DNA of 64,000 bases from Schwartzia succinivorans DSM 10502 (lineage in GTDB: Bacteria > Bacillota > Negativicutes > Selenomonadales > Selenomonadaceae): NCBI RefSeq assembly GCF_900129225.1, contig NZ_FQUG01000010.1:1-64000 (forward strand), written 5' to 3'. Position numbers and translations under genes: made by a program. Position 1 is the first letter of the stretch, and every line of letters starts with the position of its first letter. This document shows, one piece after another, positions 10,801 to 56,414 of the stretch. The notes beneath the pieces were generated by a model. It saw only the letters and a program-made list of their open reading frames with translations, was not told the DNA's origin and did no database searches.

Positions 10801-10853
10801 TCCTACACTATAGATTAAATTTAGGTGAGTGTGCCTAAATTCATATGATGAAC

Positions 10854-11010
10854 GTTATGAGTGCCCAAGTTAGTTTGGTGGGGAAAAGGAAAGCAGGTGC
10901 GATTCCTGCGCTGTCCCGCAACTGTAAGGACACTATCGGCTCGGTTCTTTACCAGCAGCAGCGGAGGATGAAGAGTGGAAAGTGTCCAAGTCAGAAAGCC
11001 TGCTCATAAC
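10854..11010 (+). promoter_or_regulatory. Cobalamin (adenosylcobalamin) riboswitch aptamer
   Basis: The B12 box and its neighbours are clear: GGTGGGGAAAAGG, GCAGGTGCGATTCCTGCGC and GCTGTCCCGCAACTGTAAG (about 10885-10930), then AAGTCAGAAAGCCTGC near the 3' end. The closing P1 stem is GTTATGAG (10854-10861) with CTCATAAC (11003-11010). It should lower expression of the downstream transporter when cobalamin is abundant. A terminator-like hairpin follows at 11092-11132, so control is probably by transcription termination. Confidence 0.93.
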
Positions 11011-11091
11011 AAGATCCATTGGTTGACTCACGGTTGATGAGGAGATGGGTGGCTTGTGTTTTTTTTGCCTTTTTTAAAAAACACGGCGCTG

Positions 11092-11150: not shown

Positions 11151-12095
11151 TTGGGTAGAAAAGAACTGCTGCACAGGCTCGGGCAGATGTTAGTTACCCT
11201 CATCGGTGTAACTATTCTTACCTTCGGGCTTACGTATATCGCACCGGGCGATGCCGTTGATGCGATTTTGGAGACAGGTGATACTCTGGTATCTGCAGAG
11301 GTAGTTGAACAGACACGTCATGAGCTTGGACTTGATCAGCCGTTTCACATTCAGTATTTGAACTGGCTGACGGGACTTCTTCACGGTGACATGGGTATTT
11401 CATATTCGGCTAAGATGCCGGTTGTTGACCGCATGCTGCTGGGAGCGCCGGGAACCCTTGCTCTCACGGGAATAGCTATCGTGATGATGCTTGTTGTTTC
11501 AGTACCGGCAGGTATCGCGGCTGCAGTATACCGCAATTCTTTTATCGATTATCTTTCAAGAGTACTTTCGTTCCTCGGAGTTTCAATGCCGAGCTTCTGG
11601 GTAGGCCTTCTTATGCTTTACATCTTCGGATTGAAGCTGGGTATGTTCCCGATTTCCGGCGGCGAAGTGGATTTGAGGCACATGGTTCTGCCGGCGGCTA
11701 CACTGTCTGTCGTAATGATTTCGAAATTCACGCGTCAGGTTCGTACGGCTGTCCTGGAGGAGCTTGGCAAGGATTACGTTACGGGCGCACAGGCCCGCGG
11801 TATCCCAATGAACAAGATTCTCTGGCATCATGTTCTGCCGAACGCCTGCCTGCCGCTTGTTACGCTTCTGGGTACATATATCGGATGGCTTCTTGGCGGT
11901 GTCGCTGTCGTAGAGATGGTATTCGCATGGCCGGGCCTTGGCTTCATGGCTGTCCGTGCTATTATGACACGTGATTTCCCGCTGCTCATGGGATTTGTCC
12001 TTTGGATTGCTATAGCGTACATGGTCATCAACCTTATAGTTGATGCTTCATATTACATCCTGAATCCGCGTTTGAAGAAGAGGGGGGGAGAATAA
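11151..12095 (+). CDS. ABC transporter permease, NikB/DppB type
   Basis: A 314-residue inner-membrane permease of the nickel/dipeptide/oligopeptide class, with about six membrane helices: helix at 12-30 (VTLIGVTILTFGLTYIAPG), a periplasmic loop ending HGDMGISYSAKMPV, and the cytoplasmic coupling motif DYVTGAQARGIPMNKILWHHVLPNA (EAA loop). The start is TTG 11151 behind GTAGGAGGAG. First gene of a five-gene ABC operon under the cobalamin riboswitch. B12 control argues for cobalt, nickel or a corrinoid-related substrate rather than peptides, but the permease alone does not decide this. Confidence 0.88.
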   Translation: MGRKELLHRLGQMLVTLIGVTILTFGLTYIAPGDAVDAILETGDTLVSAEVVEQTRHELGLDQPFHIQYLNWLTGLLHGDMGISYSAKMPVVDRMLLGAPGTLALTGIAIVMMLVVSVPAGIAAAVYRNSFIDYLSRVLSFLGVSMPSFWVGLLMLYIFGLKLGMFPISGGEVDLRHMVLPAATLSVVMISKFTRQVRTAVLEELGKDYVTGAQARGIPMNKILWHHVLPNACLPLVTLLGTYIGWLLGGVAVVEMVFAWPGLGFMAVRAIMTRDFPLLMGFVLWIAIAYMVINLIVDASYYILNPRLKKRGGE

Positions 12096-12096
12096 G

Positions 12097-12918
12097 TTGA
12101 AGTTTTTTAAGGACGAAAAGATGATGTTCCGCTTCTTCAGCGGAGTCATTCTGTTTATCGTTTTTGTGGCAGTGTTCGGCCCGTTTTTGTGCAGCGCCGA
12201 TCCGTATGCCTCCAATATGACAGAGTCCATGCTCCCACCCTCTGCACAGCACTGGTTCGGTACTGACAAGCTGGGACGTGACTGCTTCACGCGAATCATC
12301 TATGGCGCGCGTGTATCACTGTCAATGACGCTTGTTACAGTGCTTTTGATGTCATGCATTGGTACTCTTATCGGAATCATTGCAGGATACTGCGGAGGCA
12401 AGGTTGATACCTTCCTTATGCGTATTACTGATATGATGATGGCTTTCCCGGGTATCGTGCTCGCTATTGCCATTGCCGGTGTTCTCGGCGGAAGCGTCGT
12501 GAATACGGTACTGGCTCTTGCGGTCGTCGGCTGGACGAAGTACGCACGACTTGGCCGAAGCCTCACATTAAAGCTGGTGCAGAGTGAATTTATCCAGGCA
12601 GCGGTTACGAACGGTACAAAACCCTTCGCGCTGCTTCACAGGCACATTGTTCCGAACATCATGCAGATGGTTATCGTAACAGGCGCTATGGATATCGGTT
12701 CGATGATCATGGAGATTGCAGGTCTTTCGTTCCTCGGATTCGGCGCACAGCCGCCGACAGCTGAGTGGGGTCTCATGCTGAATGAAGGACGTCAGGTCAT
12801 GCAGATGGCTCCGTGGGCTATGATTTTCCCGGGTCTTGCAATTCTCTTTGTCGTTTCATCCTTCAATCTTTGGGGTGACAGCTTGAGAGACCTTATGGAT
12901 CCGTCGCGTTCTCATTGA
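12097..12918 (+). CDS. ABC transporter permease, NikC/DppC type
   Basis: A 273-residue second permease, starting from TTG 12097, one base after the previous stop, with GGGGGGGAG upstream. It has the DppC/NikC N-terminal helix, the segment HWFGTDKLGRDCFTRIIYGARVSL, and the EAA-type loop EFIQAAVTNGTKPFALLHRHIVPN. It pairs with the upstream permease to form the translocation pore. A small hairpin TGAACC-TATT-GGTTCA follows at 12931-12946, before the binding-protein gene, and could adjust relative expression within the operon. Confidence 0.88.
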   Translation: MKFFKDEKMMFRFFSGVILFIVFVAVFGPFLCSADPYASNMTESMLPPSAQHWFGTDKLGRDCFTRIIYGARVSLSMTLVTVLLMSCIGTLIGIIAGYCGGKVDTFLMRITDMMMAFPGIVLAIAIAGVLGGSVVNTVLALAVVGWTKYARLGRSLTLKLVQSEFIQAAVTNGTKPFALLHRHIVPNIMQMVIVTGAMDIGSMIMEIAGLSFLGFGAQPPTAEWGLMLNEGRQVMQMAPWAMIFPGLAILFVVSSFNLWGDSLRDLMDPSRSH

Positions 12919-13009
12919 TTTGAACCGTCGTGAACCTATTGGTTCATGAAATGTAAGTAAGGCAACACTATGTTTTATATTCATATACATTGAAAGAGAG
13001 GTACTTACA

Positions 13010-14602
13010 ATGGAATTAAGCAACAAAGTTAAAAAAAGTGTTATGGCAGGTATGGCTGTCACTATGGCAGCAACGATGCTCGTCGGCTGCGGCGGCGGAG
13101 ACAAAGGCGGCGCTAAGGGCGATTCCAAAGTCCTGAAGGTCGGTGTTACGAACTTCGCTGATACGCTTGAGCCTACGCAGAACTTCTTCGCATGGGTTGT
13201 TATGCGTTACGGCATGGGTGAGACGCTTGCAAAATTCGACGAGAAAATGAACGCTAAACCGTGGCTGGCTGAGAGCTGGAAAATCGCAGACGACCATCTG
13301 ACATGGACATTCAAAATCCGTGACAACGTCAAATTCTCCAACGGCAAGCCGCTGACGGCTGAGGCTGTTAAACAGTCCATCGAGCGCGTATTCGCAAAAC
13401 AGAACCGCGCTAAGACATTCTTCGAATATGAGAGCATTGAGGCAAAGGGCCAGGAACTCATCATCAAGACGAAGAAACCTGTACCGAATCTCCCAGGCCA
13501 GCTGGCAGATCCGCTGTGGTTGATTGTTGATGTTTCCGCTGAGAAGGAAGGCCGTGACTTTGCAAAACAGGGTCCTATCTGCACAGGCCCGTATGTATGC
13601 GAGAGCTTCACGCGTGATAAATGCGTCCTGACTAAGAACCCGAACTACTGGGACGGCGAGGTTCCGTACGAGAAGGTTGAGGTTCCGTCCATCGATGATC
13701 CGAATACCCGTGCTATGGCACTCCAGTCCGGCGAAGTCGATATGGCTGTTAACATCGCTGCAGGCGATATCGGACTTTTCCGTAACAACGACAAATTCCA
13801 TGTTGATGAGATTGCTTCCCTGCGTACAGTTCTTGCACGTATTAACCAGAAGCCGGATCATATCCTCAGCGACAAAAAGGTTCGCGATGCATTCATCAGC
13901 GCTTGCGACCGCAAGAACTACAACGAGGTTCTTCTCAAAGGCACATTCAAGGAAGGCTCCGCACCGGTTCCGCCGTCCCTGGACTATGGCTTTGACCAGC
14001 TGAAGGATCCGAACAAATACAACGTTGAGCGCGCTAACAAGCTCCTCGATGAGGCAGGCTGGAAGGATACAAACGGCGACGGTATCCGTGATAAAGACGG
14101 CAAGCCGCTGACACTTGACTTTGTTGTTTACAACAGCCGTGCAGAGCTTCCGCTCTATGCAGAGGCTGTCCAGGCTGATGCTAAGAAGGTTGGCATTGAT
14201 GTCAAGGTTAAATCCGTTGACTACAATATCATCGATAAGATGGGTATCAACGGCGAGTTTGACCTCCTGATTTCCAACATCACGACGGCTGCTACGGGTG
14301 ACCCGCAGTCCTATCTGAATCAGTACTGGCACTCCAATATTGACGGCTCCAACCCGCAGAACGGCTCCGGCTACAGCAATCCGGAAGTTGATGCTAAGCT
14401 GGATGCTCTGAACTCCGAGTTTGATAAGGATAAACGCCGTCAGCTTATCATCGAAATCCAGCAGATTTACCTCAATGATGCTGCAGGTCTCTTCCTCGGA
14501 TATCCGTACACGAACATCGTATCCTCGAAGAAGATCACAAATGCTATCATGCATCCGGCAGATTACTACTGGATCACGAAGGATATCAAACCGGCTAAAT
14601 AA
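13010..14602 (+). CDS. Extracytoplasmic solute-binding lipoprotein, family 5 (NikA/DppA-like)
   Basis: A 530-residue SBP_bac_5 protein with a lipoprotein signal (residues 1-26, TMLVGC, Cys27) and a Gly/Lys-rich linker. It has typical family segments: LAESWKIADDHLTWTFKIRDNVKFSNGKPLTAEAVKQSIERV, GTGPYV-like CTGPYVCESF, and KLLDEAGWKDTNGDGIRDKDGKPL. It captures the ligand for the two permeases. Codon use is strongly biased towards a few codons, more than in neighbouring genes, suggesting high expression. The family includes nickel- and metallophore-binding proteins as well as peptide binders. The B12 riboswitch points to cobalt/nickel or their chelates; the metal-ligand residues cannot be assigned by reading. 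Confidence 0.88.
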   Translation: MELSNKVKKSVMAGMAVTMAATMLVGCGGGDKGGAKGDSKVLKVGVTNFADTLEPTQNFFAWVVMRYGMGETLAKFDEKMNAKPWLAESWKIADDHLTWTFKIRDNVKFSNGKPLTAEAVKQSIERVFAKQNRAKTFFEYESIEAKGQELIIKTKKPVPNLPGQLADPLWLIVDVSAEKEGRDFAKQGPICTGPYVCESFTRDKCVLTKNPNYWDGEVPYEKVEVPSIDDPNTRAMALQSGEVDMAVNIAAGDIGLFRNNDKFHVDEIASLRTVLARINQKPDHILSDKKVRDAFISACDRKNYNEVLLKGTFKEGSAPVPPSLDYGFDQLKDPNKYNVERANKLLDEAGWKDTNGDGIRDKDGKPLTLDFVVYNSRAELPLYAEAVQADAKKVGIDVKVKSVDYNIIDKMGINGEFDLLISNITTAATGDPQSYLNQYWHSNIDGSNPQNGSGYSNPEVDAKLDALNSEFDKDKRRQLIIEIQQIYLNDAAGLFLGYPYTNIVSSKKITNAIMHPADYYWITKDIKPAK

Positions 14603-14631
14603 TTCAGCCGAAGGGTATCTGACCTGTCTTT

Positions 14632-14703
14632 AAGGGGCAGGGAATCCCAGATTATCATAAGAAAGACCCGGACGGGCGGCGGGGAGGTCTCCGCTGCCCC
14701 TTT
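14632..14703 (+). other. Intercistronic hairpin in the ABC operon
   Basis: The 120 bases between the binding-protein gene and the first ATPase contain a long-range stem AAGGGGCAG (14632-14640) / CTGCCCCTTT (14694-14703). Such hairpins after a binding-protein gene often terminate partly or protect the upstream mRNA, so that binding protein exceeds ATPase. Confidence 0.5.
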
Positions 14704-14722
14704 CGGGATAAAGGAGAAGTAT

Positions 14723-15523
14723 ATGTTACTTGAAGTATCGAATCTCGATATTTCCTATGGAGAGCATCCGATTGTACATGATGTAAGCCTCAAGCTTGAC
14801 TCAGGCAAGGTCATTGCTATCGTCGGCGAGTCAGGCAGCGGAAAGACTACAGTTATCCGAGCAATCCTTGGCTGTCTGCCGAATGAAGGTCATGTTACCA
14901 ACGGCAAAATCGTGTTCGACGGAAAAAATCTCCTGGAAAATACCGCGGAGGAATGGAGAAAGGTAAGCGGCAAGGATATCACCATGGTATTCCAGGCCAG
15001 CGGAAGTATGCTTGACCCTATTCAGAAAATCGGAAAGCAGTTTGTTGAATATATCCGCCAGCATGTCGATGTTACGGAGGAAGACGCATATCAGCAGGCT
15101 ATTGCCATGCTGAAGCGCATGAATCTTCCAAACCCGGAAACGATTATGGATTCCTTCCCGTTCGAGCTTTCGGGCGGTATGAATCAGCGTGTCGGTGTTG
15201 CAATGGGTATGTTCTTCAGCCCGCGCATCCTGCTTGCTGACGAACCTACATCAGCTCTTGATGTTACGACGCAGGCACAGGTTGTTGAGGAAATGATGGG
15301 TATCTGCCGCGATGACGGTACGGCTATCATCATTGTTACGCATAACCTCGGTGTTGCCGCATACATGGCAGATGAAATCATCGTCATGAGAAACGGACAC
15401 ATTGTGGAGCGCGGAACCTCGGATGAAATCGTTAACAATCCGAAGGAAGACTACACTAAGGAACTTTTGGATGCTGTTCCGCAGATAGGAGGACTTGCTC
15501 ATGACATCTACGAAGCTGGGTAA
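14723..15523 (+). CDS. ABC transporter ATPase, NikD/DppD type
   Basis: A 266-residue ATPase: Walker A GESGSGKTT, Q-loop VFQASGSMLDP, signature LSGGMNQRV, Walker B ILLADEPTSALD, switch histidine VTHNLG. It lacks the C-terminal oligopeptide-transport cysteine extension, which its partner has. The start ATG 14723 is preceded by AAAGGAGAAG. It powers the transporter with the next gene, which overlaps it by 23 bases. GMNQRV instead of the more usual GQRQRI in the signature is typical of NikD-like subunits. Confidence 0.9.
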   Translation: MLLEVSNLDISYGEHPIVHDVSLKLDSGKVIAIVGESGSGKTTVIRAILGCLPNEGHVTNGKIVFDGKNLLENTAEEWRKVSGKDITMVFQASGSMLDPIQKIGKQFVEYIRQHVDVTEEDAYQQAIAMLKRMNLPNPETIMDSFPFELSGGMNQRVGVAMGMFFSPRILLADEPTSALDVTTQAQVVEEMMGICRDDGTAIIIVTHNLGVAAYMADEIIVMRNGHIVERGTSDEIVNNPKEDYTKELLDAVPQIGGLAHDIYEAG

Positions 15524-16496
15524 AGATTATGTGCTGAATATCCAGCATGTAGTCAAAAAGTTCCCTGTCGGGGAAGGCAAAGTCCTTACAGCCTGCAACG
15601 ATGTTTCGCTGAAGCTTTACCGTGGTGAGTCACTGGCTATCGTTGGTGAATCCGGCTGCGGGAAAAGCACACTTGCAAAATGCATCATGCGCCTGCATGA
15701 TGTCACGTCAGGCTCTATCTTTTACGGAGATCAGGATATCACTCAGTTAAAGGGTGAAGACCTCCGCCAGATGCGCAAGCATATCCAGATGGTTTTCCAG
15801 GATCCGAATACTGCCTTCGATCCGAAAATGAAAATCAAGGATATTATATGCGAGCCGCTCTACAATTTTGATATGATAAAACCCTCGGAGGCTGAGGAAA
15901 AGGCAAAGGAAATGCTTCGCCTTGTAGAGCTTCCGGAGGATATCGTAGACCGCTATCCGGCGAATATGTCCGGCGGACAGCGTCAGCGTATCGGTATCGC
16001 CCGTGCACTGGTACTGAATCCTGAGGTTCTTGTCTGCGACGAGGCAACGAGTGCCCTGGACGTTTCAGTTCAGAAGAAGATTGTGGATTTGCTTCTTTCC
16101 ATTCAGAAGAAGACGAATCTTTCTATCATCTTCATCTGTCATGACCTTGCGCTTGTTTATCAGATGTGCAACCGCGCCGCTGTCATGTATCTCGGCAACG
16201 TTGTAGAGGTTCTTCCCGCAGGAAAGCTGAAGGAAGCAAAGCACCCGTATACACAGGCGCTTCTGCGTTCTGTATTCCCGCTTAGGGAGAAGGGGACTCA
16301 CACGGTACAGACTCTCGAGGGTGAAATCCCGAGTCCTGTCAATCTGCCGACCGGCTGTCCGTTCCAGGACCGCTGCTGCGAGTGCATGGACCACGGCTGC
16401 CGCGAGACAATGGCACCGCTGAAAAAGCAGGGGATACAGCACTATGCTGCCTGCCATCTTTTGGATGATGAAGTGCAGGAAACTGCACAATCATAA
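15501..16496 (+). CDS. ABC transporter ATPase, NikE/DppF type
   Basis: A 331-residue second ATPase: Walker A GESGCGKST, signature MSGGQRQRIGIARAL, Walker B VLVCDEATSALD, HDLALV switch. The C-terminal oligopeptide/nickel extension has cysteines (CPFQDRCCECMDHGCRETM...YAACH). ATG 15501 is chosen because AGGAGG lies eight bases upstream; the TTG at 15495 would be too close to that site. Overlap with the previous ATPase indicates translational coupling. Confidence 0.9.
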   Translation: MTSTKLGKDYVLNIQHVVKKFPVGEGKVLTACNDVSLKLYRGESLAIVGESGCGKSTLAKCIMRLHDVTSGSIFYGDQDITQLKGEDLRQMRKHIQMVFQDPNTAFDPKMKIKDIICEPLYNFDMIKPSEAEEKAKEMLRLVELPEDIVDRYPANMSGGQRQRIGIARALVLNPEVLVCDEATSALDVSVQKKIVDLLLSIQKKTNLSIIFICHDLALVYQMCNRAAVMYLGNVVEVLPAGKLKEAKHPYTQALLRSVFPLREKGTHTVQTLEGEIPSPVNLPTGCPFQDRCCECMDHGCRETMAPLKKQGIQHYAACHLLDDEVQETAQS

Positions 16497-16533: not shown

Positions 16534-17829
16534 ATGAAGAAGTTTTTCACAGCAGCTGCTATGGCTACGGCTATTACGGCTGCAGGCACAACAGGCTTTG
16601 CTGCTGCAAATCCGTTCGAGGATGTTGCTGCAGACCATTGGGCTTATGATGCTGTTGCTCAGCTGGCAGCTGACGGCGTAATCGAAGGTTACGGCGACGG
16701 CACATACCGCGGTGATCAGGAAATCACCCGTTATGAGATGGCTCAGATGGTTGCACGCGCTATGGCAAAGAGCGGTGTATCTGCTGCAGACAAGGCTATG
16801 ATTGACAAGCTGGCTGCTGAGTTCGCTGATGAGCTCAATGCTCTCGGCGTACGTGTTGCAAATCTCGAGAAAAAAGTAGATAATGTTAAGTGGACAGGCG
16901 AATTGCGCTATGACTATAAGAGCGCACGTCATGATGCTGATCCGTCTTGGAGAAAGAATAAGAACTATATTCGCCTCCGTCTTGACCCGACAATGACAAT
17001 CAACAATCATTGGACAGCAGGTGGACGTATCGAAATTGCTACGGACATGAATGATGCTAAAAATGCAGGTGGAGAGAAAACTGGCACAAGTTATATAGAA
17101 GCTCAGCGCGCTTATGCACAGGGTACATACGGCAACACGCAGATTACTCTCGGTAAATTCGCTCACTGGACAAGCATCGACGGCCAGATGATGTATGATG
17201 ACAACCTCGCCGGCGGACGTGTTGTATTCGGCAAGGATGTAAAGGCGAGCCTTCTTGTTTCCCGCGTTGATCATAAAGGTCGTAATGGTATGATTGATTA
17301 CACGCAGGGTGGCGGTACTGTCAGCTGGCAGGCAATTGAAATCTACAGTGATAACGGTCAGAAATTCAGCTGGGGTGCATCCTACAATAATGTAAAGAAT
17401 AAAGAGCTCCTCAGCAATGCTGCAAATTTCCGTAAGGATTCCCTCCATATCTGGGAAGTAGGTCTTGGCTACCGCTTCGACAAGAACTGGAAGCTCAGCG
17501 GTGCTTATGCAGGCTCCAATGCTGATGCTGTCAACAACGATCGCAACAAAGCTTGGAACGTTCAGATTGACTACAAGGGCGCTAACAAGAAAAAGGCAGG
17601 CTCCTACGGCATCTATGCTGCATACCGTCACGTCGGTGCAGGCGCAGTTATTGTTCCGACGTACGATTGCATCGGAGTAGATCAGAAAGGTGTAGAACTT
17701 GGTTTCGTTTACACGCTGGCTCCGAACATTCAGTGGAAAGGTTCTTACTTCTGGGGCAAAGACATGGGAGCTAATGATTCCAGCACGAAAGCAAAAACAA
17801 TCTGGACACGTATCGCTTGCTTCTTCTAA
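16534..17829 (+). CDS. OmpM-type outer-membrane porin with N-terminal SLH domain
   Basis: A 431-residue protein: signal peptide (1-25, GFAAAN), one SLH domain (about 26-80, NPFEDVAADHWAYDAVAQLAADGVIEGYGDGTYRGDQEITRYEMAQM), a short coiled coil (about 95-118), then a beta-barrel ending in CFF. In Negativicutes such proteins tether the outer membrane to peptidoglycan (the SLH domain binds a polyaminated cell wall) and form pores. It starts 37 bases after the last ABC gene with no terminator seen between, and an AGGGGGAA site precedes it, so it may share the B12-controlled transcript. This could give a substrate-specific outer-membrane route; that is inference. Confidence 0.88.
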   Translation: MKKFFTAAAMATAITAAGTTGFAAANPFEDVAADHWAYDAVAQLAADGVIEGYGDGTYRGDQEITRYEMAQMVARAMAKSGVSAADKAMIDKLAAEFADELNALGVRVANLEKKVDNVKWTGELRYDYKSARHDADPSWRKNKNYIRLRLDPTMTINNHWTAGGRIEIATDMNDAKNAGGEKTGTSYIEAQRAYAQGTYGNTQITLGKFAHWTSIDGQMMYDDNLAGGRVVFGKDVKASLLVSRVDHKGRNGMIDYTQGGGTVSWQAIEIYSDNGQKFSWGASYNNVKNKELLSNAANFRKDSLHIWEVGLGYRFDKNWKLSGAYAGSNADAVNNDRNKAWNVQIDYKGANKKKAGSYGIYAAYRHVGAGAVIVPTYDCIGVDQKGVELGFVYTLAPNIQWKGSYFWGKDMGANDSSTKAKTIWTRIACFF

Positions 17830-17874: not shown

Positions 17875-18153
17875 GTGTTGAAACAATGCATGGATGAAGA
17901 CAACCTCCACCGCCGCCTTCGTAAGATTGTCGGACAGGTTCAGGCTGTTGACCGTATGATCGAGGAGGACATTCCCTGTGAGGATATCTTATCTCAGATT
18001 AATGCCGCAAAATCTGCACTGCACAGGGCAGGGCAGGTAATCCTTGAAGGACATATTCGCCACTGCGTCCGTGATGGCATTGAGCACGGCGATCCGGATC
18101 AGACAATTGCAAACTTTACAAAAGCAGTAGAACGGTTTGCCAACATGAATTGA
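17875..18153 (+). CDS. CsoR/RcnR-family metal-sensing repressor
   Basis: A 92-residue all-helical regulator of the DUF156 family (LHRRLRKIVGQVQAVDRMIEED). The metal fingerprint is Cys35, His60, Cys64 (PCEDIL, GHIRHC), the C-H-C set of copper CsoR proteins; the nickel sensor InrS uses the same three plus an N-terminal histidine, so metal identity is open. The likely start is GTG 17875 (TTG 17878 also possible) behind AGGAAAGG. It lies 45 bases after the porin and upstream of a promoter bearing two GC-rich palindromes of the CsoR operator type, the likely target. A second csoR sits next to copA at 36062. Confidence 0.88.
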   Translation: MLKQCMDEDNLHRRLRKIVGQVQAVDRMIEEDIPCEDILSQINAAKSALHRAGQVILEGHIRHCVRDGIEHGDPDQTIANFTKAVERFANMN

Positions 18154-18240: not shown

Positions 18241-18293
18241 TACCCATCCCCCTATAGGGGGTATTGACGGGTATACCCCGATAGGTATATAAT
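18241..18293 (+). promoter_or_regulatory. Promoter with two CsoR-type operators
   Basis: The -35 TTGACG (18264-18269) and -10 TATAAT (18288-18293) are 18 bases apart. A perfect palindrome CCCCCTATAGGGGG (18248-18261) sits directly upstream of the -35, and a second, GGGTATACCC (18269-18278), lies in the spacer. This matches the known CsoR operator style (TACCC...GGGTA) and resembles the sites before csoR-copA at 35996-36034. Confidence 0.8.
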
Positions 18294-18324
18294 TACATTG
18301 TAAAGATAATCTGGAGGGGAGTGT

Positions 18325-18519
18325 ATGCGGAATATGTGGACAAAGTTTATGGATTGGGCGGACTCAGGCCAAGAGATTGCGCGTGTTACTCCTATGCACA
18401 TCCATACGGAACATGAATGTATGGAGTGCCATCAGGCACACTGCCATGACGGGGAAGAGCTCTGCGAGACATGCAGACAGCTCCTCGAAAAGGTGACCGG
18501 AGAGAAGACGTACAGTTAA
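18325..18519 (+). CDS. Small Cys/His-rich putative metal-binding protein
   Basis: A 64-residue protein behind GGAGGGGAG with no signal peptide. The middle is dense in ligands: His25, His27, His30, Cys32, Cys35, His36, His39, Cys40, His41, then Cys47 and Cys50 (CxxCHxxHCH...CxxC). This could form a zinc-ribbon-like fold or a soft-metal binding site. I know no named family. Being the only gene behind a promoter with two CsoR-type operators, it is probably induced by copper (or nickel) and may buffer or traffic that metal in the cytoplasm. The function is inferred from context and composition only. Confidence 0.72.
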   Translation: MRNMWTKFMDWADSGQEIARVTPMHIHTEHECMECHQAHCHDGEELCETCRQLLEKVTGEKTYS

Positions 18520-18536
18520 TCTGTCCAAGACAAACA

Positions 18537-18570
18537 GACTCCTGCTGCATTGTTGCGGCAGGAGTTTTTT
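18537..18570 (+). terminator. Intrinsic terminator after the Cys/His protein
   Basis: Stem ACTCCTGC(TGC) / (GCG)GCAGGAGT with a loop around CATTGTT, followed by TTTTTT. Confidence 0.9.
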
Positions 18571-35939: not shown

Positions 35940-35986
35940 GGCAGCTTTGCTAAGCATACGGCTTGGCAGAGCTGCTTTTGTTTTTG
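35940..35986 (+). terminator. Terminator after the hypothetical protein
   Basis: Interrupted stem GGCAGCT-TTGC-AAGC / GCTT-GCAG-AGCTGC followed by TTTTGTTTTT. Confidence 0.75.
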
Positions 35987-35995
35987 AAAAATAAA

Positions 35996-36040
35996 TACCC
36001 TATAGGGGTACTTGACAAATACCGCATGGGGGTATATTAT
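35996..36040 (+). promoter_or_regulatory. csoR-copA promoter with two CsoR operators
   Basis: The -35 TTGACA (36012-36017) and -10 TATTAT (36035-36040) are 17 bases apart. TACCCTATAGGGGTA (35996-36010) lies immediately upstream of the -35 and TACCGCATGGGGGTA (36020-36034) fills the spacer. Both match the CsoR operator pattern, and the placement mirrors that at 18241-18293. Confidence 0.9.
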
Positions 36041-36061
36041 GCTAAACAAGAGGTGCTTACA

Positions 36062-36415
36062 ATGCAAGATGAAATGAAATCGAAAAAAATTAAAGATACC
36101 GAAGCAGCTTCAGAAGGGGCAGTATGCTCTCACTGCGCGCGAATTAAGGTGCGGTCATCGGGTGAATATAAAAAGCTTATAAATCGTCTGAATCGTATAG
36201 AGGGCCAGATTCGCGGTATCAGGGGAATGGTAGAAAAAAATGCTTACTGTCCTGACATTCTCGTACAGTCTGCTGCGGTTACTGCGGCGGTTCACGCTTT
36301 TAATCGCGAGCTTTTGGCAAATCATATCCGTTCCTGCGTTTCAGAGGACATTCGGGCAGGTAAGGATGAAACTGTAGATGAACTTGTAAAACTCCTTGAG
36401 AAATTTATGAAATAA
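36062..36415 (+). CDS. csoR: Copper-sensing repressor CsoR
   Basis: A 117-residue CsoR-family protein (KKLINRLNRIEGQIRGIRGMVEKNAYCPDIL...NHIRSCV). The copper ligands Cys (AYCPD), His (NHIRSC) and Cys are all present, with an N-terminal addition carrying CSHC. Unliganded it should bind the two palindromes in its own promoter, and Cu(I) releases it. The start at 36062 has GAGGTG six bases upstream; longer in-frame starts would lie inside the promoter. Followed after 26 bases by copA. Confidence 0.92.
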   Translation: MQDEMKSKKIKDTEAASEGAVCSHCARIKVRSSGEYKKLINRLNRIEGQIRGIRGMVEKNAYCPDILVQSAAVTAAVHAFNRELLANHIRSCVSEDIRAGKDETVDELVKLLEKFMK

Positions 36416-36441
36416 GGGGTATATGAGAAGGTGAAAAATAT

Positions 36442-38973
36442 ATGAAGCAATATAATGTCACGGGAATGAGCTGCGCTGCATGCTCGAACCGTGTTGAGAA
36501 GGCTGTAAGCAAAGTGCCGGGGGTATCTTCCTGCGCTGTCAGTCTTCTGACGAATTCCATGGGAGTAGAGGGAACAGCGTCTGATGTTGATGTAATTGCG
36601 GCAGTTGAGGCGGCGGGCTACGGCGCGTCAGTGAAGGGTGAGCCGAAGGCACATGACGGCGGGGCCTTTGCGGAGCAGGAGGAGTCGCTGAAGGACCATG
36701 AAACTCCGATGCTGAAGAAGAGATTGATTTATTCGCTGGGATTTCTTGTGGCACTCATGTATGTTTCAATGGGGCACGGGATGCTCGGACTTCCGCTTCC
36801 TAAGTTTTTTGAGGGAAATTTTGCGGCTGTCGGAGTAGTTGAGATGCTGCTCTCAGGAATAATCATGGTAATAAATCAGAAATTTTTCATAAGCGGAGGA
36901 AAGAGTCTTCTTGGCGGAGCGCCAAATATGGATACACTGGTTGCGCTTGGCTCGTTTTCTGCGTTTATATACAGTGTGCTGACGCTGCTTTTGATGACAG
37001 ATGCGGCGCTTATAGGCGGAGCTTTGGCGGCAGCACAGTTTATGGATGGATTTTACTTCGAGTCGGCGGCAATGATAGTTACCCTTATCACGATAGGAAA
37101 GATGCTTGAGGCACGCTCCAAGGGGAAGACCACTGATGCCCTGAAAAGTCTTATGAGCCTTGCGCCAAAGACTGCCGTTGTAATCCGCGGAGATGAGGAA
37201 GTTACTGTTCCTGTGCAGGAGGTTGCGATTGGGGATATATTTGTCGTACGTCCGGGAGAGACGATTCCTGTTGACGGAACTGTTATAGAGGGAACCAGCG
37301 CTGTCAATGAAGCGGCGCTTACAGGTGAGAGTCTTCCTGTTGATAAAACCGCAGGAGATTCGGTATCCTCGGCAACGTTAAATCAGTCAGGTTTTTTGAA
37401 ATGTCGTGCTGACCGTGTAGGCGCAGATACAACGCTTGCGCAGATTATAAAGCTTGTAAGCGATGCGGCGGCCACAAAGGCACCTATAGCAAAAATGGCA
37501 GACCGTGTCTCGGGCGTCTTTGTTCCTATTGTCATTGCAGCGGCGGCTTTGACCACTGCCGTCTGGCTGTGGCTTGGCGCAGATATGACATCTGCGGTAT
37601 CTCACGGCATTGCGGTGCTTGTGATAAGCTGCCCCTGCGCGTTGGGACTTGCGACACCTGTTGCCATTATGGCAGGTACAGGCAGAGCCGCAAAGAACGG
37701 TATTCTTTTCAAGACATCAGAGGCTGTGGAGCTGGCAGGACGTGTAGAGATTGCTGCTCTGGATAAGACGGGAACAATTACGCGCGGAGAGCCGCAGGTG
37801 ACGGATATTTTTCCCGTAGACGGGGTGAGTGAAAGAGAGCTTTTGGAGACGGCTGCAGCGCTTGAAGCAAAGAGCGAGCACCCTTTGGCAAAGGCAGTAA
37901 TGCTGCGTGCGGAGCAGGAGAGAATTTCTGCGCCGGAGGCCGAGGATTTCAGGGCGGTTTCAGGAAATGGCGTTGAAGCGCATGTGAATGGAGTAAGACT
38001 CATCGGAGGAAGCAGAAAATTTATTTCTTCCGTTGCAGAGCTTTCCAAAGAAATGCTTGAAGCTGCTGACCGCTTTGCAGATGAAGGAAAAACACCGCTG
38101 TTTTTCATAAAAGGCGAAAAGCTTTTGGGTATGATTGCCGTGGCGGATGTTTTGAAGGAAGACAGCCGTGAGGCGATAGCCAGTCTGAAAAAAATGGGCA
38201 TCAGAGTAGTGATGCTCACCGGAGACAACCGAAGAACTGCAGAGGCTGTTGGCAGGGAGGCAGGAGTTGACGAGGTTATTGCCGACGTGCTGCCTGACGG
38301 AAAAGAGGCTGTTATACGCCGTCTGCAGGAGTCGGGAAGAGTCGCTATGGTAGGTGACGGTATAAATGACGCGCCTGCGCTGACACGTGCCGATGTTGGT
38401 ATAGCGGTAGGCGCGGGAACGGATATTGCCATTGATGCCGCAGATGTGGTTATCATGAAAAGCCGTCTGTCGGATGTTCCTGCCGCAATTCGTCTGAGCC
38501 GTGCAACACTGAAAAACATAAAGGAAAATCTCTTCTGGGCGTTTTTCTATAATGTTGTGGGGATTCCGCTTGCGGCAGGTGTATGGATACCTGTTTTCGG
38601 ATGGTCGCTGACACCGATGTTCGGCGCGGCGGCTATGAGTCTTTCAAGCGTATCTGTTGTTATGAACGCGCTTCGACTGAATTTTTTCAATCTATATGAC
38701 GCTGACGGGATAAAAAATAGCCCCGCTGCTATACAGAAGCATGAAGAAAAGGAGGTGCATACTATGGTAAAAACGATGAAGATTGAAGGCATGTCCTGCG
38801 GACATTGCGAGGCACGGGTCAAAAAGGCTCTTGAAGCACTGCCGGGTGTTACGGAGGCTGTTGCTGACCACGAAGCATGCAAAGCAACCGTTACAATGAC
38901 GGAGGCTGTTGCTGACGATGTTCTGCGTAAGGCTGTTGAGGACCAGGACTATAAGGTTCTCGGAATTGAATAA
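36442..38973 (+). CDS. copA: Copper-exporting P1B-type ATPase with N- and C-terminal HMA domains
   Basis: An 843-residue Cu(I) export pump. N-terminal HMA domain (residues 1-68, GMSCAAC), eight helices with the CPC motif in [13 protein letters not shown], actuator TGES (ALTGESLP), phosphorylation site DKTGT, HP motif in SEHPLAKA, nucleotide-domain GDGINDAP, and the C-terminal helix pair. Residues 775-843 form a second HMA domain with GMSCGHC at the very C-terminus, an unusual place. The reading frame passes through a complete ribosome binding site and ATG at 38764, so a free chaperone could also be made (next entry). Operon with csoR. Confidence 0.94.
38764..38973 (+). CDS. copZ: Nested CopZ-like copper chaperone inside copA
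   Basis: Codon 775 of copA is an ATG preceded at proper distance by AAAAGGAGGTG (38748-38758 region). Starting there gives a 69-residue protein, [18 protein letters not shown]..., the usual size of CopZ, with the Cu(I)-binding GMSCGHC. The frame is the same as copA. Either the fusion preserved an ancestral copZ start, or both the long pump and free CopZ are translated from one frame. A real internal start is likely from the strength of the site, but not proven. Confidence 0.65.
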
Positions 38974-45302: not shown

Positions 45303-47084
45303 TTATTGCAGCAGTGATAGCACGGAGCTGCTGTTTTGATTTGCCTGCGCCAGCATAGCCTGTGCTGCCTGCATGAGTACGTTTGCTTTAGTGTACTCAG
45401 TGAAGGTGAGTGCCATGTCTGCGTCGCGGATTGTGCTTTCCGAGGCCGTGACGTTCTCGTGAGCGGTGATGATGTTCGATGCCGTGAAGTCAAGGCGGCT
45501 CTGGATTGCACCAATCGTAGTCTGCTGATTGAGTGCCTTGGAAATAGCGCGGTCGATAACGGTAATAGCTGCAGTAGCTTTCTTCTGCGTTTCGACACTG
45601 AGTGTTGTGCCGTCCTCTTTCTTGAGCCCGAGAGCAGTGGAGCGCATATCGCCAAAGCCGATTTTGATGGCCTGATTTGCCTTGGTCCCAATCTGGAATG
45701 CCATACGTTTTTCGGGTTCTGCATTGGCTGCCTGGTGCGCCATGTAGCGGAGAATCATGTAGCCTGCCGCATACGCGTCATCACCGGACACACTCCCCGA
45801 GTTTTCGAGCGCGTTTTTGAGCCTCGCCTGATCTGCGACCATGGCTTCAATCGTAACTTTCCTGTAGTCGTCGATACCGTGTACCAGCTCTGCCGCGCCT
45901 TCCTTGATGTATTTCGGAAGGTCGGCAAAATGCGTGATATTTGCTGCCATCAGCGCGTGAACCATTTCGTGAGCGATACAGCGGTCGAGGTAAAGCTGAT
46001 TGGGGTCGCCTGCGACAGCGCCATTTTCGTCGGAAAGGTCGAGGTTGCCGTAATAATCCATGTTAACCTGAAGTTCAAGTCCGATTGTTTTGCCGGTACT
46101 GTCATAGGTAGATACGACCTGTGCAAGGGTGTTTGCGCCAATTGACGTTGGAGACAAATTTACCGTCATACTGCGAACTGTCGTGCCGGGGTCAGTAAAA
46201 TTCAGCTCGTAGGATTCCTGAATAAGGTCGGTGCAAAGCGAGAGCCATTGATTGTTTAACGCTTTTGCGATAGCCTGCTTGGCCGAGTCACTTCCTGTGT
46301 CAGGCCAGACAACAGAGAGACCATTGATTACGGTGGTACCGCTTGGCACACCGCCTGTATAGGGACTTCCGTCTTCAGGAACAACGCTCACCGCGTTTTT
46401 CTCTTTTTCTCCGCCTGCGTCTAAGCCTGTAATGGCACCTGTATCAGCATTTGAAAGGTTTATTCCGGTAATGTCCAGCAAATCACCTGAAGACATGTCG
46501 GCAAGGAAACTGCTGATGAGGTCACTTTCGCCGGAGAAAAGACCGCCTGAGGCATAGTTAATTGCACCGTCCAGTGCTTCCTGCGCGGAGAGGTTTGCGT
46601 TGTCAAGATAGCTCATGAAATCTACAACGACACCGTGCTCGTCGGAAGGCATGTTGCCTCCCATGCTGCCGTTCAGGAGATATTTGCCGTTGTAGGTAAC
46701 GTGGGCGTTGTCATCAATCTGCGCGATGAGCTGGTCAATCTCACGCTGAATGATGGCACGGTCCCGATCGGTGTTTGTGTCGTTAGCAGCGTCAAGTGCT
46801 TTTTCCTTGAAGGTCTTTAGTATCTCAACGGTAGAGGAAACAGCACCCTCGGCGGTATTCATAAGACTGCGTGCAGTCTGGGTGTTTTTGAGATCCTGAG
46901 TGACGCCGCGGATTTGCGCACGCATACGTTCACTGATTGCATAAGAGGACGCATCATCAGCAGCGCCGTTTATCCTCATTCCAGAGGACAGGCGCGCAAG
47001 CTGCTTGGATAATTCAGTTTGGTTCCTCCCCAGTACATTCAGCGTCGATGTGGCGGAGGTGTTGTTTTTGACCTTCATGGTCAT
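45303..47084 (-). CDS. Flagellin with embedded zinc metallopeptidase domain (flagellinolysin type)
   Basis: A 593-residue flagellin. The conserved D0/D1 ends are normal (NTSATSTLNVLGRNQTELSKQLARLSSGMRINGAADDASSYAIS at the start; TASNIITAHENVTASESTIRDADMALTFTEYTKANVLMQAAQAMLAQANQNSSSVLSLLQ at the end). Between about residues 150 and 490 the surface-exposed variable region holds a peptidase: HEMVH at 372-376 (HExxH), with YIKEGAAELVHG about 20 residues later, supplying the Glu third ligand of gluzincins. Flagellinolysins of this type make the filament proteolytic. The start is ATG 47084 with AAAGGA ten bases upstream; TTG 47093 is too close to that site. A long structured leader lies upstream. 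Confidence 0.93.
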   Translation of the reverse strand: MTMKVKNNTSATSTLNVLGRNQTELSKQLARLSSGMRINGAADDASSYAISERMRAQIRGVTQDLKNTQTARSLMNTAEGAVSSTVEILKTFKEKALDAANDTNTDRDRAIIQREIDQLIAQIDDNAHVTYNGKYLLNGSMGGNMPSDEHGVVVDFMSYLDNANLSAQEALDGAINYASGGLFSGESDLISSFLADMSSGDLLDITGINLSNADTGAITGLDAGGEKEKNAVSVVPEDGSPYTGGVPSGTTVINGLSVVWPDTGSDSAKQAIAKALNNQWLSLCTDLIQESYELNFTDPGTTVRSMTVNLSPTSIGANTLAQVVSTYDSTGKTIGLELQVNMDYYGNLDLSDENGAVAGDPNQLYLDRCIAHEMVHALMAANITHFADLPKYIKEGAAELVHGIDDYRKVTIEAMVADQARLKNALENSGSVSGDDAYAAGYMILRYMAHQAANAEPEKRMAFQIGTKANQAIKIGFGDMRSTALGLKKEDGTTLSVETQKKATAAITVIDRAISKALNQQTTIGAIQSRLDFTASNIITAHENVTASESTIRDADMALTFTEYTKANVLMQAAQAMLAQANQNSSSVLSLLQ

Positions 47085-47093
47085 GATAATCAA

Positions 47094-49084: not shown

Positions 49085-49876
49085 ATGGCGAGACCACCGA
49101 AGTGCCGATGTATCGGAGGATATCCCGACTTTTGGAGTTTTTCTCCTGATGATGAAAGCACTGAAGCACCTGTTATGCTGAGTCTTGATGAGTTTGAGAC
49201 AATACGCAGTATTGACTGGCTGGGGCAGAATCAGGAGGAATGTGCGCAGGAAATGCAGATTGCTCGGACGACAGTCACATCAATCTATGAAAGCTCCCGC
49301 AAAAAACTGGCAGATGCACTGGTAAACGGAAGACGCATTATTATTTCCGGCGGAAGCTATCGCCTGCGTGAGACGGAAGAATCTATACATATGAAAAAGA
49401 AGGGAAGCGGTGTAATGAGAATCGCAGTAACTTATGAAAACGGAGAGGTTTTTCAGCATTTCGGACATACACAGCAGTTCAAGCTGTATGATGTAAATAA
49501 CGGTACGATTGAAAAAGAAGAGGTCGTAGATACAAACGGCCAGGGACACGGCGCACTCGCAGGTTTTTTGAAGCAGGCAGAGGTCGATACACTCATTTGC
49601 GGAGGTATCGGCGGCGGTGCACAGATGGCACTGTCTGAAGCAGGCATCACTCTTTACGCGGGCTGCAGCGGTGAAGCAGATGAGGCCGTAAAAGCACTGA
49701 TTGCAGGAACGCTTGCACAGGTCGGTGAGGCAACATGCGACCATCATCACGGCGAAGAGCACCACTGCGGACATCATGGGGAAGGTCATGAACACCATCA
49801 TCACCATGAGGGCGGGCACTGTGGACACCATCATGAAGGCGGACATTGCGGCCATCACCATCATCATGAGGAATGA
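49085..49876 (+). CDS. DUF134 HTH fused to NifX/NifB-like domain with His-rich tail
   Basis: A 263-residue fusion. Residues 1-95 are DUF134, a sigma-factor-like helix-turn-helix (MARPPKCRCIGGYP..., LSLDEFETIRSIDWLGQNQEECAQEMQIARTTVTSIYESSRKKLADAL). Residues 110-220 match the dinitrogenase iron-molybdenum cofactor domain (RIAVTYENGEVFQHFGHTQQFKLYDV...GGIGGGAQMALSEAGITLYAGCSGEADEAVKAL). Residues 222-263 are His/Cys/Gly-rich (repeats of EGGHCGHHH). It may sense or carry a metal cluster and control its own promoter. A ferredoxin gene follows after two bases. Confidence 0.9.
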   Translation: MARPPKCRCIGGYPDFWSFSPDDESTEAPVMLSLDEFETIRSIDWLGQNQEECAQEMQIARTTVTSIYESSRKKLADALVNGRRIIISGGSYRLRETEESIHMKKKGSGVMRIAVTYENGEVFQHFGHTQQFKLYDVNNGTIEKEEVVDTNGQGHGALAGFLKQAEVDTLICGGIGGGAQMALSEAGITLYAGCSGEADEAVKALIAGTLAQVGEATCDHHHGEEHHCGHHGEGHEHHHHHEGGHCGHHHEGGHCGHHHHHEE

Positions 49877-55190: not shown

Positions 55191-55246
55191 TATGAAAATT
55201 TAAAATCCCGCAAGCCTTTACTGATAAGGTTTGCGGGATTTTTTTA
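55191..55246. terminator. Terminator after cbiK, copy B of the direct repeat
   Basis: AAATCCCGCAA(A/G)CC-type stem: AATCCCGCAAGCC / GGTTTGCGGGATT. It shares its loop region and flanks with copy A at 54389-54446. On the minus strand it terminates cbiK. Confidence 0.8.
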
Positions 55247-56167
55247 TTCGTTTGATGTAAGAAGATTGTAGGCCTCGTCCGCGCGGTCTACGAAAATCTG
55301 GCGTATTGCGGCGTTTTCGCCCAAGCCGTGAATGTAGGTGCTTACTGTAAAACCCTCGGCTTCCAACTGTGATTTGTGGGAGTCGGGATCATCCCCTGCC
55401 ATATCGTTTGTCACATGATCTCCTGCAACCATCATGGCCGGCATGAGAGTGACATGCTTTATGCCGTCGCGTTTAAGACGCGGAATGATATCCGCAAGCG
55501 TGGGCCAGCCTTCTACCGTGTACATATAGACGTTTTTGATGCCTGCTGCATCAATACGTGTCTGAATCATGGTGTAAAAGGCGTTTGAAGGGTGAGGTGT
55601 GCCGTGCGCCATCAGAAGAACAGCTTCATCATCCTTGTTATCCGGAAGTTGTGTTTTCAACGCTTCGACAAACTGCTCAAAATCATCCCGTTGGTCTTCC
55701 TGTCCCATCCAGTAAAGAAGCGGTGTGCCCATTGTAATTTTTTTGAATTTATCCTTGTAGTGATCAAACACTGCCGTATTGTAGGCATATTCCATTCCGG
55801 GAAGGATATCAAGAGTTGTAAGTGCAACACGAGTATACCCTTCTGCTGCCAATTGGTCGAGTGCCTCTTCAGGAATAGGAATCTGCATGCCTTCATTGGC
55901 TTTTACACGGTCGATAATTATGTGTGAAGTGAACGCCAGGGCTACCTTGGTGTCAGGATGAGCCGATTGGATTTGGTCAACGGTGGCCTGTATGGTAGCT
56001 TTTCGAGTGCCCTTGAATGTTGTACCAAAGCTCATTACCAGTATCGCGTCTTTATCATCAAGATGCTGCAGCTCCGAGTTGATGTAGGAGAGCTCGCCTA
56101 TTTGAGATGCTCTGAGCAGAGAAGGCGTTGGAGCCTTTACTGCACTGTTTAGTTTGTACGTTGTCAT
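55244..56167 (-). CDS. cbiK: Sirohydrochlorin cobaltochelatase CbiK
   Basis: A 307-residue anaerobic cobaltochelatase that inserts Co(II) into sirohydrochlorin in early cobalamin synthesis. It shows VMSFGTTFKGTRKATI, the first metal histidine in LMAHGTPHPSNAFY, and the second in MMVAGDHVTNDMAGDD. No export signal is visible (N-terminus MTTYKLNSAVKAP), so it is cytoplasmic, unlike the periplasmic CbiK forms. The start at 56167 has CGGAGG upstream. No other cbi gene and no B12 riboswitch is next to it; it links functionally to the B12-controlled transporter at 11151. Confidence 0.93.
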   Translation of the reverse strand: MTTYKLNSAVKAPTPSLLRASQIGELSYINSELQHLDDKDAILVMSFGTTFKGTRKATIQATVDQIQSAHPDTKVALAFTSHIIIDRVKANEGMQIPIPEEALDQLAAEGYTRVALTTLDILPGMEYAYNTAVFDHYKDKFKKITMGTPLLYWMGQEDQRDDFEQFVEALKTQLPDNKDDEAVLLMAHGTPHPSNAFYTMIQTRIDAAGIKNVYMYTVEGWPTLADIIPRLKRDGIKHVTLMPAMMVAGDHVTNDMAGDDPDSHKSQLEAEGFTVSTYIHGLGENAAIRQIFVDRADEAYNLLTSNE

Positions 56168-56414
56168 CAGCCTCCGAAAATTGAAAATCTTACCACTAAA
56201 GAGTAAACCATGTAGTGGGTATATAGTCAATGGAGTAGGGGGGGATATTAAAAATATATTATGGGTTTTAACAGTTTTTTCATTGACAGCACGATGCTGT
56301 ATACAGGAGGCTGCAGGGTTGTTTTGCCATCTTGTCTGATGTATTATTGAGAAGTAAACAAATTGACAGGAAACTTTGTGGTAAGCGGGGTTTTCAAAAG
56401 GATGGGGCGGTAAA

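Follow-up and report, generated by a model that had tools for sequence, protein, structure and literature searches.

A conserved Cys/His-rich small protein gene under putative CsoR-family control beside a cobalamin-riboswitch operon of Schwartzia succinivorans

In the stretch of 64,000 nucleotides analysed here (the window, part of the 2.66 Mb genome of Schwartzia succinivorans), a gene encoding a Cys/His-rich protein of 64 amino acids carries CsoR-type operators on its promoter. The sequence data give good support to its control by a repressor of the CsoR family: the anatomy of the operators, sequence conservation and joint occurrence across genomes all point that way. The best reading for the metal puts cobalt first, nickel or zinc next and copper last. 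We tentatively favour, at a little less than even confidence, a model in which CsoR1, the product of the upstream gene, would be a metal-sensing repressor for Co(II) (possibly Ni(II)), and the small protein a cytosolic buffer or chaperone. Small metal-responsive proteins under CsoR-family repressors have been described before; within the material searched, what is new is the sequence of this protein, its connection to cobalamin and the probable sensing of cobalt.

The small gene and its promoter

The open reading frame (positions 18325-18519, + strand) has a Shine-Dalgarno-like GGAGGGG 5' of its ATG. As described in the first-pass annotation, its 64-residue product contains the motifs CxxCHxxHCH and CxxC. 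The potential ligands are five Cys and six His: C32, C35, H36, H39, C40, H41, C47 and C50, plus H25, H27 and H30. An orthologue is present in a second Schwartzia genome (G139), in two partial copies; these are contig ends with an exact overlap and thus represent one gene. The orthologues differ by 16.5 synonymous and 8.5 non-synonymous changes, and all five Cys and six His are unchanged. The presence of the orthologue, the dN/dS of about 0.07 and the retention of every Cys and His indicate that the gene is real and under strong purifying selection. Inspection revealed a sigma-70-type promoter, TTGACG-18-TATAAT (18264-18293, +), and an intrinsic terminator is predicted 3' of the coding sequence (18536-18567, +), indicating that the gene has its own promoter and its own terminator.

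Two perfect palindromes had been noted at this promoter. One of them, the operator-like CCCCCTATAGGGGG (18248-18261, site 1), is there; it abuts the -35 box and appears in the second Schwartzia genome as CCCCCTTAGGGGG, one base shorter. The other, GGGTATACCC (18269-18278), is not conserved in the second Schwartzia genome and was dropped as second operator. The conserved element is instead ATACCCCGATAGGTAT (18273-18288, site 2), a putative CsoR1-type operator of the form ATACC-N6-GGTAT in the -35/-10 spacer, which corresponds to GTACCCCTATGGGTAT in the second genome. CsoR-type operators are thus present on the promoter as proposed, site 2 being the conserved one.

Operators were searched by pattern. 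The pattern ATACCCCNATRGGTAT, written after the window site had been seen (N at position 8), occurred once in the window genome versus zero times for the reversed-pattern control, and the site-2 motif was also found in promoters of relatives carrying csoR1. With up to three mismatches allowed, the site-1 palindrome had four matches in the window versus 0.8 expected. Near-matches to a closely similar G-tract palindrome were not enriched genome-wide over the reversed pattern, so the palindrome by itself is weak evidence. Repeated palindrome arrays, ATACCGCTCGCGGTAT and ATACCGCTTGCGGTAT, were seen at G000:C10:82689-83407 and C17:197917-199227, with many in genome G140 too; they look like unrelated repeat elements.

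The same operator style had been reported in front of csoR-copA, and the two-site layout is indeed found there. csoR2 and copA lie at 35963-38973 (+). The two sites (35995-36035) surround a promoter with TTGACA at 36012-36017 and TATTAT at 36035-36040, and, as at the small gene, one site precedes the -35 box and the other falls within the spacer. They differ from site 2 in their spacing: both copA sites of the window and both of the relative read ATACC-N7-GGTAT, whereas site 2 has N6. CsoR2 carries the Tyr-Cys copper signature, with Tyr at second-shell position A, and could also bind the sites of the small gene. As a description of the locus, the first-pass annotation was thus right about the reading frame, the first palindrome, csoR and the copA layout, and wrong about the second palindrome.

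CsoR1 and the cobalamin-riboswitch gene row

The gene upstream of the small gene, csoR1 (17875-18153, +), belongs to the CsoR/RcnR family, as previously assigned: its product matches Pfam PF02583 with an E value of 2e-26 and aligns with the solved structures of CsoR, InrS and FrmR. The alignment identifies C35, H60 and C64 as the X-Y-Z ligands (Cys-His-Cys). The Cys/His ligand pattern alone does not predict the metal, and the copper CsoR of Mycobacterium tuberculosis is marked by Tyr at position A and Glu at position B of the second shell (PMC4235346). CsoR1 has neither residue, Pro being aligned at A (as in InrS) and Asn in the B column, and thus lacks the copper signature. CsoR1 and its orthologues share an N-terminal Cys (Cys5 in CsoR1) close to the W position. 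The Co/Ni sensors RcnR/DmeR and InrS resemble CsoR1 in family, in Cys-His-Cys/His ligands and in their link to Ni/Co transport. They differ from it in that CsoR1 has the conserved N-terminal Cys and a CsoR-style G-tract operator, and in that its putative target here is a small protein, not an exporter. A third CsoR-family gene (G000:C15:331512-331739) encodes an InrS-like protein with a His-rich N-terminus and has no adjoining metal exporter.

csoR1 is the last gene of an operon headed by a cobalamin riboswitch (10842-11021, +; RF00174, 59.7 bits versus an Rfam gathering score of 31.5). Between the two lie genes whose profile matches are of the NikB-NikC-NikA-NikD-NikE/OppF type (11151-16496, +), followed by a gene for an SLH-domain outer-membrane porin (16534-17829, +; por_somb, below cut-off). 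Among the subunits of this predicted ABC importer, the Opp2B and Opp2C 'nickel' permease equivalogs score over cut-off and the others below it. NikABCDE systems behind B12 riboswitches were earlier separated from Ni-specific ones (PMC2667541). The window genome has, by sequence, genes for cobalamin synthesis, including cbi genes and CbiK-like chelatases.

These data bear on a Cu(I) regulon governed by CsoR1 or CsoR2, in which the small protein would be a copper buffer resembling MymT. The two-site promoter geometry equal to that of csoR2-copA speaks for copper, as do the Cys-His-Cys ligands, found also in Cu(I) CsoR, and the control of the Cu metallothionein MymT by RicR, a CsoR paralogue (PMC10470581). 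We nevertheless consider copper quite unlikely because CsoR1 lacks Tyr and Glu in the second shell, because csoR2-copA is already dedicated to this metal, and because csoR1 is part of an importer operon under a cobalamin riboswitch. The N6 spacing of site 2, as found with csoR1, also argues against it, both csoR2-copA promoters having N7. Of the original interpretation, CsoR-family control is therefore supported and copper is the less likely metal; nickel, its other suggestion, is possible, and cobalt fits best.

Several further genes of the genome were noted. One CbiK-like cobaltochelatase gene, recognised by sequence, lies in the window (55244-56230, -), and a similar gene stands behind a cobalamin riboswitch at G000:C15:191904. 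Another cobalamin riboswitch (G000:C17:148425-148598) is located upstream of genes resembling those for methylmalonyl-CoA mutase subunits and a MeaB-like protein, with the operator-like ATACCCGTATGGGATT 88 bp upstream; riboswitch control of a B12-using enzyme, as the mutase locus suggests, would be unusual. A protein encoded at window positions 49085-49876 has a very His-rich, Cys-containing C-terminal tail and may bind metal. The flagellin gene at 45303-47093 (-) contains a long insert with HEMVHA that looks like a metalloprotease insert and that we take to be flagellinolysin-like.

Operators and csoR1 across the Selenomonadaceae

Orthologues of csoR1 (59-100% identical) were detected in 22 of 189 family genomes. 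Adjacency to importer genes is confined to Schwartzia; in other genera csoR1 lies elsewhere. The operator pattern ATACCCCNATRGGTAT was found in 17 of the 189 genomes (16 without the window genome), and 15 of these 17 carry csoR1 (Fisher p 3.5e-15, a value that overstates independence, as 11 genomes of the genus g19 are related). The two operator genomes without a detected csoR1, G129 and G131, have completeness values of 82% and 80%. Contrasts within the genera g2, g9 and g16 agree with the co-occurrence, which, at the level of sequence, links the operator with CsoR1 and not with CsoR2.

Four genomes (G044, G046, G119 and G177), all with csoR1, have the operator or a near variant of it in the promoter of a CPC P-type ATPase gene. 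In G044 and G046 the ATPase gene adjoins csoR1 and its promoter has two operators; in G177 and G119 the same type of ATPase with the same kind of sites lies away from csoR1. No riboswitch was found in the ATPase loci of these four genomes, nor in the other csoR1 loci examined. In genus g19, eight loci in six genomes have the operator ahead of a cobalamin riboswitch, at a distance of 35-85 bp; the genes that follow encode solute-binding proteins, SLH porins and, in one case, another product. The operator of G039 stands ahead of a P-type ATPase gene that neighbours a riboswitch-led cbiD gene. The link between operators and riboswitches derives mostly from one genus, g19.

These targets also bear on whether CsoR1 could be an InrS-like sensor of nickel or zinc, or of Cd(II), with the small protein as a nickel or zinc buffer. 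The ATPases encoded behind the operator score far above the cut-off of the cadmium-family model, and the one in G039 has an N-terminus rich in Cys and His, with a DCANC motif; a NikABCDE-type importer alongside and Pro at position A of CsoR1 would suit such a sensor as well. The repeated occurrence of the operators in cobalamin-riboswitch neighbourhoods points to cobalt, and we regard the nickel, zinc or cadmium alternative as unlikely.

A repressor released by metal suits exporters and a buffer, but operators that lie upstream of importer genes are not simply explained by it. Judged from their positions only, 5' of the -35 box, the g19 importer operators would require another mode, for example activation by the apo form of CsoR1, or a repression that serves some other end. 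According to a 2021 review, no importer was known to be under the control of a protein cobalt sensor (PMC7689651). The g19 loci are candidates for such a sensor. A broader proposal is that CsoR1 is a cobalt sensor tying protein sensing to cobalamin-riboswitch control, with exporters, a new cobalt-binding protein and, in related genera, riboswitch-led importers and porins among its targets; this we hold to be conceivable, if doubtful.

Seven g19 loci (L156, L157, L158, L162, L163, L167 and L186) have operator-like N6 sites next to a gene of TetR type, after which comes a radical SAM gene; those that were scanned contained no riboswitch.

Relatives and possible role of the small protein

A search for homologues, suggested in the first-pass annotation, yielded the orthologue in the second Schwartzia genome and none beyond the genus. 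Among the species genomes, close matches were limited to Schwartzia sp. RUI279. No homologue outside Schwartzia was found in 84,980 species genomes searched with peptide patterns, a method weak for distant relatives, nor in the 189 Selenomonadaceae genomes (the whole order searched) or in 398 genomes of the phylum; viral contigs and plasmids gave none either. No solved structural relative was found, the best match having an E value of 0.37 over 13 residues, and the AlphaFold model was poor (pLDDT 60.8). The protein matches no family of Pfam or NCBIfam, and no metallothionein family of these collections up to an E value of 10. The original statement that it belongs to no described family thus holds for Pfam and NCBIfam, but the C-terminal module resembles YgbA (PF11756).

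Several of the best outside matches in the family genomes were YgbA proteins. The piece in common is C-x3-H-x3-G-x2-L-C-x2-C. The small protein's C-x3-H-x7-C-x2-C is an exact match to the first of YgbA's metal modules, with the same spacing of the C, H, G, L, C and C residues, including the invariant L and the near-invariant G. In both predicted models (that of the small protein being of low confidence) the module lies between two helices. A Pfam scan did not report PF11756. The small protein, which ends after the first module, has no counterpart of YgbA's second cluster of Cys or of its C-terminal half, and the N-termini differ. The module pattern arises in about 1e-6 of shuffles of the small protein, and hhalign gave an E value of 2e-4 with a probability of only 47%. 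Since 2 of about 5000 shuffles reached the YgbA profile score, homology is not claimed; the likeness is one of a single module and serves as a lead. No significant match came from a fold search started from the YgbA model. Full-length YgbA is encoded by a separate gene in the window genome. In the portions of the literature consulted, ygbA is under NsrR control in E. coli, and no function is stated for YgbA. In some g19 genomes (L114, L118 and L025) a YgbA-family gene lies on the opposite strand, some 1 kb away from csoR1, which may be chance synteny.

The module could have a purely structural role, as may hold for YgbA, and the small protein would then be a zinc-stabilised adaptor or regulator, binding for instance the importer, an exporter or a chelatase. 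The exact module match, the profile-profile alignment and the position between two helices in the models are consistent with this. C32, H36, C40, H41, H25, H27 and H30, conserved beyond the module, exceed what one structural site needs, and we judge an adaptor improbable.

A cytosolic metal buffer, the role we prefer, is plausible. It is consistent with the dense, conserved Cys and His residues and with the lack of any stretch hydrophobic enough for a membrane segment, because of which the protein should be cytosolic. We envisage that the riboswitch-controlled NikABCDE-type importer, encoded in one gene row with the porin, would bring in cobalt or nickel. When the metal is scarce, apo-CsoR1 would occupy the operators of the small gene and keep it off; when the metal rises, CsoR1 would bind it and leave the DNA, and the 64-residue protein would be made. 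This protein would bind metal through the C-x3-H-x7-C-x2-C module and neighbouring Cys and His, and would act as a buffer or as a chaperone handing the metal over towards cobalamin synthesis. The metal would be kept there until used for cobalamin or until levels fall.

A precedent for such a circuit is MymT of M. tuberculosis under RicR, likewise a small, Cys-rich protein of the cytosol whose gene is under a repressor of the CsoR family (PMC10470581). The likeness is at the circuit level; the Cys/His make-up differs, the metal of the small protein is probably not copper, and Schwartzia has a separate csoR-copA.

If the cobalt model is correct, B12-making rumen bacteria would possess a cobalt-responsive regulon in which a metal sensor is placed above transcripts led by cobalamin riboswitches, together with a small protein of the cytosol that may buffer cobalt or hand it over. 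The gap named in the review, a cobalt-sensing protein that acts on importers, could then be tested directly, for which one repressor and a few fragments of DNA would suffice.
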